A stretch of DNA of 64,000 nt from Xanthobacteraceae bacterium (lineage in GTDB: Bacteria; Pseudomonadota; Alphaproteobacteria; Rhizobiales; Xanthobacteraceae), in contig JARBUD010000013.1 of NCBI GenBank assembly GCA_029239875.1, forward strand, positions 1 through 64,000, written 5' to 3'. Below the pieces are notes generated by a model, which saw nothing but the letters and a program-made list of their open reading frames with translations, was not told the origin of the DNA and did not search any database. Made by a program: the position numbers and the translations under genes. This document shows positions 45,886-51,881 of the stretch, piece by piece (positions within the stretch are counted from its first letter, which is position 1; each line of letters begins with the position of its first letter).

Positions 45886-47193
<1,308 letters not shown>

Positions 47194-47202
47194 AGAAGAG
47201 GG

Positions 47203-47910
47203 TCAGAAGCGCCGGCCGAAGCCGCCGCCGCTGCGGACGAACATCGGACGGCCGCCGAAGCCACCCGCGCGGAAGGCGGGGCCGCGGAAGCCGCCGGCGC
47301 GGTAGACCGGACCGCGGAAGCGCGGACCGCCGCCCCAATAGGCCGGCCGGCCGCGCCAGCCGGGACGAGCGGCCCATCCGGGACGATTCCACCCCGGACG
47401 GTTCCAGCCAGGACGGCCGGCCCAACCGGGACGATTCCAGCCGGGGCGATTCCAGCCGGGACGGTTCCAGCCCGGGCCCCAATAGCCGCCGCGCCAATAG
47501 GCACGCCGCCAGCCCGGACCCCAGCCCCAGCCAGGACCCCAGCCCCAGCCCGGGCCATAGCCCCAGCCCCAGCCGTCGTCCCAGGCCGAGCCGACCGCCG
47601 CGCCCAGCGCGAAGGCGCCGACGCCGAGGGCGACGTCATCGGCATAGTTGGGGGTGACGACGACGCTGGTGCCGCCGCCGGCGATGAAGCTGGCGCTGAC
47701 CCAGCCGCCGCCGACGCGGCACCAGTTGCCGGTGCAGCCGCCCACGCTCACGCGGGCGCCCGCCGGCAGCGAGCCGATGACGGCATAGTTCGTTCCCGGT
47801 CCGCTGCGGACATTCACCGTATTGGTGATCACCGCCGCGGATGCCGCATTCACGACGCTGCCGGCGACCAGAAGGCCGGCGGCCAGCGCCAACGACTTCA
47901 CGAGACTCAT
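47203..47910 (-). CDS. Secreted SH3-domain protein with RPGWN repeats
   Basis: 235 residues. Signal peptide (VKSLALAAGLLVAGSVVNAASA), one bacterial SH3 domain (ITNTVNVRSGPGTNYAVIGSLPAGARVSVGGCTGNWCRV), a GWGWGPGWGWGPGW stretch, then about seven RPGWN/RPGWA repeats and an Arg/Gly/Phe-rich tail. SH3b domains in secreted proteins often bind peptidoglycan. The repeat part is low-complexity and probably extended and sticky. ATG 47910 is favoured because AGGGAG is 6 nt upstream. Paralogue of the six-SH3 protein next door. Confidence 0.87.
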   Translation of the reverse strand: MSLVKSLALAAGLLVAGSVVNAASAAVITNTVNVRSGPGTNYAVIGSLPAGARVSVGGCTGNWCRVGGGWVSASFIAGGGTSVVVTPNYADDVALGVGAFALGAAVGSAWDDGWGWGYGPGWGWGPGWGWGPGWRRAYWRGGYWGPGWNRPGWNRPGWNRPGWAGRPGWNRPGWNRPGWAARPGWRGRPAYWGGGPRFRGPVYRAGGFRGPAFRAGGFGGRPMFVRSGGGFGRRF

Positions 47911-48036
47911 TTTCATCTCCCTAAAGGCGCATGAAGCGCCCCGGTCGTCGCCTGGGCGGCCGGGTCTTGATCTTCGAAGGCAACCACGTCCGGCGGAATT
48001 GGTTGCATCACCTATCCGCGCGCGGGGCGACGGAGA

Positions 48037-51000
48037 TCACCAGATGCCCGCGCGCGGCTGCCAGACCACTGGTCGGCCGGCATATTCCGGGCCCTCGGCA
48101 TAGGGGCCCGGCCAGCGCGGGCCAATGCCATAGTACCAGCTCGCGGCCTGCGGCAGGCGCCCCTCGCCGCGGCGCGACCAGTAGTAGTTGCCACGCCGGT
48201 CGCCGCGATAGGCGCGCGTCGGATAGCCGGGATGGACGTTCCAGAAGGTGGTGCGCCCGCCCCAATAGCTCGGCCGCGCGCCCCAGTTGGACGGGATGTT
48301 GCGCCCGTGCAGCCCCGGCCCCCAGTAGCCCGGGCCCCAGCTCGTGCGCCAGTTGGTCCAGCCGAGGCCGCGGCCATAGCCGCCCCAGTTGCTTTCGATG
48401 CCGCCCAGCGTATCGACCACCGGCAGGCTGGCGGCGGTGGCAACATAGTCGCCCTGCGGATAGGCCTCCACCGGAGTGGCGGCATAGGCCGGCGCAGCGA
48501 CAAGCGACGGATCGACAAAGGCGGCGTTGGAATAGTCGCCGCCGGAGACGACCGCCGGCCGCGCCAGCAGGGTGCCGGCATCGGCGCCATCGAGATGGCG
48601 GGCGCTGACATAGCCATACTGCGTCTGGCACCAGCTGCCCGCGCAGCCCACCACGTTCACCGGCGAACCCGCCGGCAGCGTGCCGAGCACCTCATAGGAC
48701 GTGCCGGGGCCGCTGCGCACATTGAGGTTCGAGGCAGTGGTCGCGGTGTAGCCGCCGGCCGCGTCCAGCGCGGCACCCGGCGCGCCGAGATAACGCGGCG
48801 CCTGCGAGGGCGAGATCGGCACGATGCCCATATTGTTGCCGAGCGGATAGTTGCGCGCCGCCGGGACGGACTGCGTGCGGCGATAATTGGTGCCGCTGCC
48901 GGCGGGCACGGCGCCCGGCAGGGTGCCGGCCTGGCCGAGCACCGCGCCGGCGAAGGCACCCTGGTTGATGTGGCGGGCGCTGACATAGCCGTACTGCGTC
49001 TGGCACCAGCTTCCCGTGCAGTTCACGATATTGACCGACGATCCCGCCGGCAGCGTGCCGAGCACGCCGTAGCGGACGCCGGGTCCGCCGCGCACATTCA
49101 CATTGGCCGTGGTCGTCGCCGTGCCCGCCGCGCCATAGGCGGCGCCGGCCGAGGGCGCATAGGCGCGCCCCGCCGTCGGATAGCCGAGCGCTGCGGCGCC
49201 GGCGACCTGGGGCGTCGGGCGGGCATAGCCGCCGGCCGGCGTGTAGCCCGTAGCGCCGCCCGCTGCATAGCCGCCCTGCACGCCGGAGCCCGGTGCGCCA
49301 TAGCCCATCGCCGCCTGCGTCGCCGCGTTCCAGGCGATGGAATCGCGCGTCTGCGAGCCCGGCACAAGCGGCTGCGCCTGCGAGGTCAGCACCTGCTGCA
49401 CCGGGCCGCGCGAGAGCAGGTAGATGCTGATGTAGCCTTCATTGGTCTGGCACCAGGCATTGGCGCAGTTCGTCACCTCGACCTTGGTGAAGTCGGGCAG
49501 CGTCTTGGTGACGGGATAGTCGACGCCGGGGCCGCTGCGCACATTGGTGGTGCCGATCGTGGTGCGCGGCCCCGCCATGGTGGTGTTGCTGCCGGGATGG
49601 TCCTCGGCCGGATCATGCGCACCCGCCGGCCGCGTGGGGGTGCCGGCCGCCGGAGCGGCGCCATAGCCGAGCGCCGCCGCGCCGGCGACCGGCGCGGTGC
49701 GCGGCGCGGCGGGCGCGGCATAGGTGGGGGCGGCATAGGTGGGGGCGGCATAGGTGGGGGCGGCATAGGCCGGGGCGCGCGGAATCGCGGCGGCGCTGTT
49801 GTAGGGCTGCCGGTAATTGGTGCCCGTATTGGCATAGGCCGGCGCGGCCCCGGGGGCGACGCCGGTATAGCCCGCGCCGCCAAAACCCGCCCCGCCAAAG
49901 CCCGCGCCCTGCGACAGCAGCCGCGCACTGATGTAGCCGTACTGCGTCTGGCACCAGCTGCCGGAGCAGCCGACCACGTTCACCGGCGAGCCCGCCGGCA
50001 GCGTGCCAAGCACGCCATAGCGGACGCCCGGACCGCCGCGCACATTGGCATTGGCCGTCGTCGTCGCGCTGCCGCCGGCGCCGTAGGCCGCGCCAGCCGC
50101 GGGCGCGTAGCCACGCGCCGTGGGTGCATAGGTGCCGGCCAGTTGCGGCAGCGGGCGGGCAAGATTGGCGGCGGGAAGGCGCGGCGCGCCGACGGGCGCA
50201 TAGGCGCCGGCGGCGACGCCCGCCGCATAGCCGCCCTGCACGCCGGAGCCCGGCGCGCCATAGCCCATCGCCGCCTGCGTCGCCGCGTTCCAGGCGATGG
50301 AATCGCGCGTCTGCGAGCCCGGCACGCGCGGCTGCGCTTCCGAGGTCAGCACCTGCTGCACCGGGCCGCGCGAGAGCAGGTAGATACTGATGTAGCCTTC
50401 ATTGGTCTGGCACCAGGCATTGGCGCAGTTGGTCACCTCGACCTTGGTGAAGTCGGGCAGGGTCTTGGTGATGGGGTAGTCGACGCCGGGACCGCTGCGC
50501 ACATTGGTGGTGCCGATCGTGGTGCGCGGCCCCGCCATGGTGGTGTTGCTGCCGGGATGATCCTCGGCCGGATCATGCGCGCCCGCCGGCCGCGTGGGGG
50601 CCGTGCCAGCCACCGCCGGGGGCGTTCCATAGCCGAGCGCCGCGGCGCCGGCGACCGGAGCGGCATAGGCCGGCGCGCGGGCGAGTGCCGCGGCGGCCGC
50701 GGCGTTATAGGGCTGGCGGTAGTTCGTGCCCGTGCCGGCATAGGCCGGCGCATAGCCGGGGGCGAGGCCGGCAAGACCCGCCGCGCCCAATCCTGCCGCG
50801 CCGTAGCCCGTAGCTCCCTGCCCGAGCAGGCCCGCACTGATGTAGCCGTACTGCGTCTGGCACCAGTTGCCGGTGCAGGCGATCACATCGACCGGCGAGC
50901 CGGCGGGCAGCGTGCCGAGCACGCCATAGGCGGTGCCGGGACCGCTGCGCACATTGGCATTGGTCGTCGTCGTCGACGGCCATGCGCCGGCGACGAGCGT

Positions 51001-51051
51001 CCCCGCGACCACCAGCCCCGACGCCAGCGCGAGCGATGTCCTGATCCGCAT
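48037..51051 (-). CDS. Large secreted protein with six bacterial SH3 domains
   Basis: About 1,004 residues after moving the start to ATG 51051, which has GGGGAGA upstream and begins the signal peptide RIRTSLALASGLVVAGTLVAGA. Six SH3b domains follow, each with NVRxGPGxxY and a CxxxxWCQT motif. Domains 1, 3, 5 and 6 share the form TLPAGSPV...GSWCQTQYGY; domains 2 and 4 share TLPDFTKVEVTNCANAWCQTNEGY. Linkers are Ala/Gly/Tyr/Pro-rich with PTYAAPTYAAPTYAA repeats. The last ~120 residues are Trp/Gly/Arg-rich. Probably a cell-wall-binding envelope protein. Internal DNA repeats show recent domain duplication. Confidence 0.88.
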   Translation of the reverse strand: MRIRTSLALASGLVVAGTLVAGAWPSTTTTNANVRSGPGTAYGVLGTLPAGSPVDVIACTGNWCQTQYGYISAGLLGQGATGYGAAGLGAAGLAGLAPGYAPAYAGTGTNYRQPYNAAAAAALARAPAYAAPVAGAAALGYGTPPAVAGTAPTRPAGAHDPAEDHPGSNTTMAGPRTTIGTTNVRSGPGVDYPITKTLPDFTKVEVTNCANAWCQTNEGYISIYLLSRGPVQQVLTSEAQPRVPGSQTRDSIAWNAATQAAMGYGAPGSGVQGGYAAGVAAGAYAPVGAPRLPAANLARPLPQLAGTYAPTARGYAPAAGAAYGAGGSATTTANANVRGGPGVRYGVLGTLPAGSPVNVVGCSGSWCQTQYGYISARLLSQGAGFGGAGFGGAGYTGVAPGAAPAYANTGTNYRQPYNSAAAIPRAPAYAAPTYAAPTYAAPTYAAPAAPRTAPVAGAAALGYGAAPAAGTPTRPAGAHDPAEDHPGSNTTMAGPRTTIGTTNVRSGPGVDYPVTKTLPDFTKVEVTNCANAWCQTNEGYISIYLLSRGPVQQVLTSQAQPLVPGSQTRDSIAWNAATQAAMGYGAPGSGVQGGYAAGGATGYTPAGGYARPTPQVAGAAALGYPTAGRAYAPSAGAAYGAAGTATTTANVNVRGGPGVRYGVLGTLPAGSSVNIVNCTGSWCQTQYGYVSARHINQGAFAGAVLGQAGTLPGAVPAGSGTNYRRTQSVPAARNYPLGNNMGIVPISPSQAPRYLGAPGAALDAAGGYTATTASNLNVRSGPGTSYEVLGTLPAGSPVNVVGCAGSWCQTQYGYVSARHLDGADAGTLLARPAVVSGGDYSNAAFVDPSLVAAPAYAATPVEAYPQGDYVATAASLPVVDTLGGIESNWGGYGRGLGWTNWRTSWGPGYWGPGLHGRNIPSNWGARPSYWGGRTTFWNVHPGYPTRAYRGDRRGNYYWSRRGEGRLPQAASWYYGIGPRWPGPYAEGPEYAGRPVVWQPRAGIW
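49261..50600. repeat. Internal duplication in the six-SH3 gene (two copies, 960 bp apart)
   Basis: 49261-49640 and 50221-50600 align without gaps at an offset of exactly 960 bp. I count about 14 differences in ~380 positions. The flanking SH3 domains also align but less well, so the unit is an SH3 pair plus linker of ~960 bp. Confidence 0.92.
49718..49772. repeat. 15-bp tandem repeat (PTYAA codons)
   Basis: GGCATAGGTGGGGGC occurs three times in tandem plus a partial fourth. It encodes the Pro-Thr-Tyr-Ala-Ala repeats of the linker before SH3 domain 4. Confidence 0.88.
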
Positions 51052-51244
51052 CGGCTTCTCCCCACCGTCGCCTACCGTCATGGACGGCAACGGCCAGGGT
51101 CAGGGATGCCTCGAAAGCGGAAGTTTCGCAATAAAATGGGTGGAAAATGGTTGCCAAGGTGCAACCAGCATGCTTGCCGCGCCCGATGATTCGGGGCGAG
51201 GCCGGCCGCGTGCCGCGGCGGCGCAGGCGTCAGAACCTCAGGCG

Positions 51245-51568
51245 TCAGGCCTGGCTCTTCAGCGACTTGACCGCTTCTTCCAGCAGTTCGTCCATGGTCC
51301 GGCGGATGCGGTGCTCGGAGACGTCCACACCCTTGGCCTCGAAATCGGCCTTCAGCTTGCGGAACACGTCCTCGTCGCCGCCCTCCTCGAGGTCGGCCTC
51401 GATGAGCGCCAGCGCATAGGCGTCGACGTCGGTGCCGGAAAGGCCCAGCTTGTCCGCCGCCCACAGGGCGAGCGCCTTGTTGCGGCGCGCCTGGGCCTTG
51501 AATTTCAAGGCTTCGTCGTGGGCGTACTTGGCTTCGAACGCGTCTTCGCGGTCGTTGAACGTGCTCAT
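51245..51568 (-). CDS. DUF1476 protein, zeta-subunit inhibitor of F1-ATPase
   Basis: 107 residues: MSTFNDREDAFEAKYAHDEALKFKAQARRNKALALWAADKLGLSG. This is the alphaproteobacterial zeta subunit, which inserts its N-terminal helix into F1FO-ATP synthase to stop ATP hydrolysis. The four-helix remainder is present. ATG 51568 starts the family's normal N-terminus; the track adds 5 residues. Divergent from purC. A TTGATT/GATAAT pair upstream may be its promoter. Confidence 0.95.
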   Translation of the reverse strand: MSTFNDREDAFEAKYAHDEALKFKAQARRNKALALWAADKLGLSGTDVDAYALALIEADLEEGGDEDVFRKLKADFEAKGVDVSEHRIRRTMDELLEEAVKSLKSQA

Positions 51569-51881
51569 AAGTGCTCGCCCCATGTCTCGGTAAATTGCGG
51601 GCTTGATTATCCTGCCCCCGCACCCAAATCAACGCCGACGAGACATCTTGCCGGCCCCTACGTCAATGTGACGCTCATGTCGCCAGTGCTGGCCTGCCGC
51701 GCGCGGTGCCGTTTGTATCCGCTCCCCCGATCGGCTAGTGTCCGGCCGTGGGCGCTGGTGCCATGCGAGACGAATCGTCAGAGCGCGAGCAGATCGCGCA
51801 GAAGTGCGGCGCCCCAGCCGTTAACCCGGAACCGAAGCCCCGGCACCCTAAATGGACTTCCTCAACCGACGGTACCCACCC
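51569..51881. promoter_or_regulatory. Divergent region DUF1476 / purC
   Basis: 313 bp with no convincing gene. For DUF1476, TTGATT (51632-51627, minus) and GATAAT (51611-51606) are 15 bp apart, a plausible though short-spaced promoter. For purC I cannot name boxes. No purine riboswitch is recognised. Confidence 0.4.

Follow-up and report, generated by a model that had tools for sequence, protein, structure and literature searches.

Near-identical SH3 domains in an exported Ancylobacter protein, probably kept alike by recombination within the gene

The stretch of DNA analysed here (hereafter the window; 64,000 nucleotides) opens contig 29 in a genome of 5.07 Mb that belongs to Ancylobacter or a very close relative. 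It contains a gene for a predicted exported protein with six SH3 domains, two of which lie in almost identical blocks of DNA. This raises the question of whether these blocks result from a recent duplication or have been kept alike by recombination, the two possibilities that the initial annotation had put forward. The gene is on the minus strand (48037..51051), with its ATG at 51051 and its stop codon at 48039-48037, and encodes 1,004 residues. Its locus is bounded upstream by the gene for the ATPase inhibitor zeta-subunit (51245..51583, minus strand) and downstream by purB (45886..47193, plus strand), from which it is separated by a gene for a single-SH3 exported paralogue (47203..47916, minus strand). 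A promoter scan was empty, and two terminator-like sites were found, about as many as shuffled sequences yielded. A 985-codon open reading frame runs antisense to the gene (48232-51189, plus strand). Long antisense frames occur often in GC-rich coding DNA, and this one was set aside as probably a by-product of the high GC content.

A Pfam search identified six SH3_3 (PF08239) stretches in the protein, with a whole-protein score of 220.8 bits (E 1.5e-66; cut-off 27 bits), and a profile search of the genome placed each of the six domains singly above the PF08239 cut-off. This bears out the description of six SH3b domains in one exported chain. The only other Pfam family above its cut-off, SH3_4, is a related one and matched the stretches already assigned to SH3_3; no unrelated Pfam domain exceeded its cut-off in this search, and no catalytic domain was recognised. 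The TIGR04211 (SH3-and-anchor) profile scored 80.7 bits against a cut-off of 65 bits, a sum over five stretches of which the best covered only profile positions 8-41 of 198, and membership of this family, with its C-terminal anchor, was rejected.

By sequence, the domains are of two types, A and B, in the order A-B-A-B-A-A. They are encoded, all on the minus strand, at 50824..50961 (domain 1, A), 50389..50511 (domain 2, B copy 1), 49912..50052 (domain 3, A), 49429..49551 (domain 4, B copy 2), 48967..49104 (domain 5, A), and 48592..48732 (domain 6, A). The two types had thus been correctly recognised, but their alternation does not hold after domain 5. The domains are separated by linkers of 78-120 residues. 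The linker preceding domain 4 contains 15-bp tandem repeats encoding TYAAP (49708..49767, minus strand), a second potential source of length change. The chain ends in a Trp/Gly/Arg-rich tail (48040..48408, minus strand), and starts with a predicted signal peptide (MRIRTSLALASGLVVAGTLVAGA-W...), placed approximately at 50977..51051 (minus strand) from the sequence and an alignment with relatives, among which its start and AxA-type end are kept. Judging from sequence and conservation, the protein would be exported by means of this peptide.

A C-x3-W-C motif was present in all six domains, one residue shorter than the CxxxxWC first reported, and the 12 cysteines of the protein are all within these pairs. 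Across 115 domains, 111 had C-x3-W-C and the remaining 4 had C-x4-W-C (CTxNNWC); the latter belong to the single-SH3 genes (L057, L058, L061, and L062) that adjoin the multi-SH3 gene in the species with three domains. AlphaFold2 modelled an A-B-A unit as three beta barrels with a pLDDT of about 90, joined by linkers that were both mostly below 50, and in a second model the C-terminal 180 residues were also below 50; the underlying alignments were shallow (16 and 17 sequences). The strands of an SH3-type barrel were predicted at high confidence in domains 1-3 and in domain 6. From the low model confidence, the linkers and the Trp-rich tail are probably disordered. In the predicted strands (E53-60/E63-66), C59 faces C64 across a tight hairpin, a geometry that makes the earlier suggestion of one disulfide per domain plausible. 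When the predicted barrels were compared with known structures by Foldseek, they matched 2krs and 2kt8, and most matches of bacterial SH3 type came from enzymes of the cell wall or from SH3 domains and modules that bind it.

The repeated DNA of the window's gene consists of a B domain with its flanks. An ungapped self-match at an offset of 960 aligned 49257..49636 (copy 2) with 50217..50596 (copy 1), both on the minus strand, with 14 differences in 380 nucleotides (96% identity), 9 of them silent, exactly as the initial annotation had estimated. At any other offset, the best 300-nucleotide ungapped self-match reached only 69% identity. Highly identical tandem coding DNA was confined, in this genome, to the B type and did not extend to the A type.

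We searched 30 Ancylobacter genomes, the window's own included, with one genome per species. A multi-SH3 gene was present between the zeta-subunit gene and purB in 17 of them. It encodes six domains in 11 of the 17, among them the window's own; this count is secure, since five of these genomes are assembled in one or two contigs (G009, G010, G014, G018, and G011). Four domains were found in A. moscoviensis (G021) and three in G004, G007, G024, and G027, all of these lower counts coming from multi-contig drafts in which collapsed repeats are conceivable. In A. gelatini (G025), the gene is cut by contig ends and lies on both contigs (L052 and L053). Forms with four and six domains have the layout A-(B-A)n-A (n = 1 or 2) and those with three have A-B-A, in agreement with the growth by a two-domain unit that had been proposed. 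Domain number differs between species, and it may also vary between strains, as had been suggested.

The single-SH3 gene stands alone at the locus in 12 of the 30 genomes, and one (G002) gave no match in the genus search. Wherever the locus was read within the genus, the single-SH3 gene adjoins purB, even without the multi-SH3 gene. Its product in the window (237 residues) has a signal peptide similar to that of the multi-SH3 protein and a Trp/Gly-rich tail with GW/WNRPG repeats; a tandem origin of the multi-SH3 gene from this neighbour is plausible. When 298 genomes of the order were searched with an A-B-A profile (E <= 1e-15), only short matches of single-domain length were found outside the multi-SH3 gene. 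No paper linking Ancylobacter with an SH3 domain turned up in a literature search.

Comparison of the B blocks showed that they resemble each other by genome rather than by position. In DNA, the two B domains of one genome were 94-100% identical in each of the 11 six-domain genomes, as compared with mostly 72-89% between genomes across lineages and 92-97% between the genomes of the three most closely related sister pairs. A tree of the blocks paired copies from the same genome or from sister species. Placing all first B copies in one clade was rejected with p-AU 3e-57, an exact value that is unreliable in view of an implausibly large likelihood drop of 768 units, and the argument leans on the tree pattern more than on this test. 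Pairing the first B copy of G000 with that of its sister G009 was also rejected (p 2.5e-4); the G000 pair did not form a clade of its own in the free tree, and such a clade was not rejected (p 0.24). Outside the B block identity drops sharply, at edges that differ by species.

The A domains of sister species bear on the choice between recombination and duplication. In the pairs G000/G009 and G005/G016, domains 3 and 5 were each closest to their positional counterpart in the sister species, and the same was found, more weakly, for G010/G001. For the first two pairs, dS within a genome was 0.66-0.87 between domains 3 and 5, as opposed to 0.00-0.17 between the B domains, and the B copies were 96-99% identical per genome in at least two sister pairs whose A domains keep their positional identity. 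Old, positional A domains next to near-identical B domains indicate that the six-domain layout predates the species split in these two pairs, and that B was homogenised afterwards. As judged from these comparisons, the near-identity of the B blocks is more than the trace of a recent duplication: recombination appears to have homogenised the blocks in two sister pairs or more. Of the two possibilities initially offered, recombination thus stands for these pairs and a simply recent duplication does not. In G005/G016 a wider block of 91 codons had a dS of 0.22-0.29 within the genome, no lower than the 0.23-0.25 between the species, so that the homogenised tract is there little more than the domain itself.

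The strongest competing explanation starts from an ancestor with the four domains A-B-A-A; each lineage would have duplicated a B-A (or A-B) unit on its own, and gene conversion would have had no part. A four-domain form is known in A. moscoviensis, and the B-A units, domains 3 and 5 included, are near-identical within the genome in G011, G013, G018, and G029 (in G014 partly); for these genomes a fresh or later duplication is equally possible. Furthermore, domain 3 resembles domain 1 in G000 and G010 but domain 5 in G013, and the breakpoints may differ. Duplication alone is, however, insufficient for G000/G009 and G005/G016, where B is near-identical per genome although domains 3 and 5 are old and correspond by position between the sister species. 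It is disfavoured in these two pairs, and we consider it unlikely as an account of the whole family.

A somewhat less likely possibility is that the family always has six domains and that the three- and four-domain forms are collapses of short-read assemblies. Assemblies from short reads tend to break inside repeats, as happened in the A. gelatini gene, and every three- and four-domain genome is multi-contig. Against this, several draft assemblies did yield six domains, and the three-domain forms have a different ending: the proteins stop past their third domain and keep no more than a short piece of the tail that, within the genus, was found only alongside the multi-SH3 gene. In a purB+purC tree, whose deeper nodes are weak, the three-domain species form one clade; on this tree, domain number must have changed four times or more (G025 left out).

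The comparison with known systems bears on a further reading, that of a surface-exposed stalk whose length sets the projection of its tip. Periscope Proteins are by definition rod-like surface stalks (Whelan et al. 2021, PMC8201768; review PMC9704523); they consist of tandem domains with near-identical DNA, their repeat-number differences have been attributed to intragenic recombination, and SH3_3 is one of the repeat domains for which longer, flexible linkers were noted (PMC8201768). Of the known systems they come closest. The multi-SH3 gene shares with them the highly identical tandem coding DNA, in its B blocks, and differs in repeat number between species. Its long linkers, of low confidence in the two that were modelled, are neither short nor rigid and do not make a rod-like array, and the protein has a signal peptide but no recognisable tip adhesin or surface anchor, its tail not being confidently folded. 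On account of these linkers and the missing tip and anchor, a stalk of this type is improbable. The repeat number of Periscope Proteins varies by strain; the numbers three, four, and six were compared here between species, with one genome each and the low counts from drafts. Strong purifying selection on the protein without recombination, which would fit the near-identical amino acid sequences of the B copies within genomes, can be dismissed, because silent sites are homogenised as well (dS 0.00-0.24 between the B domains of one genome, versus B-block values of 0.38-0.50 between G010 and G001 and 0.53-0.87 between G029 and G011).

A further parallel is the autolysin CpAcp of Clostridium perfringens, whose ten SH3b domains, joined by mostly disordered linkers, have been proposed to hold peptidoglycan through multiple contacts (PMC8470621). 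The multi-SH3 protein is likewise an exported chain of many SH3 domains with probably disordered linkers; CpAcp differs in having a catalytic domain and in being from a Gram-positive organism, whereas no enzyme domain was recognised here. With exported PF08239 proteins, including its single-SH3 neighbour, it shares the domain family, a signal peptide, and a Trp/Gly-rich tail, but it has six domains where the neighbour has one. We class it with the multi-SH3b wall proteins that evolve by intragenic recombination, a known kind, and regard it as neither a new class of system nor a Periscope Protein proper.

We favour, with some reservation, the view that the gene encodes an exported, multivalent peptidoglycan-binding protein of the envelope, the B copies of which are homogenised by intragenic recombination, with gain and loss of B-A units. 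The Sec-exported chain would carry six disulfide-clasped SH3 barrels on long, probably disordered linkers rich in Ala, Pro, Gly, and Tyr, followed by the Trp/Arg-rich tail. It would most likely remain periplasmic and bind peptidoglycan through domains that are individually weak, acting by avidity. A flexible, multivalent binding function is the most likely one from what is known of the family and from the comparison with CpAcp (PMC8470621). In most species, the B domain and some 60-150 nucleotides on each side would be homogenised between the two copies, either by gene conversion or by unequal crossover after which the length is restored. The same B/A repeats would also permit gain or loss of a B-A unit, which would account for the three-, four-, and six-domain forms across the genus.

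Extended to the genus as a whole, recombination would keep B uniform in each genome, with the A domains drifting apart by position in several of the lineages, and the protein would be a periplasmic tether of the wall, its valency changing by two domains at a time; we regard this generalisation as rather unlikely. The occurrence of three, four, and six domains at one locus, together with the sister species, offers a natural series for distinguishing, in a bacterial repeat protein, duplication from homogenisation driven by recombination. The same Ancylobacter series provides a setting in which to ask whether wall binding in Gram-negative bacteria is tuned by the number of domains.
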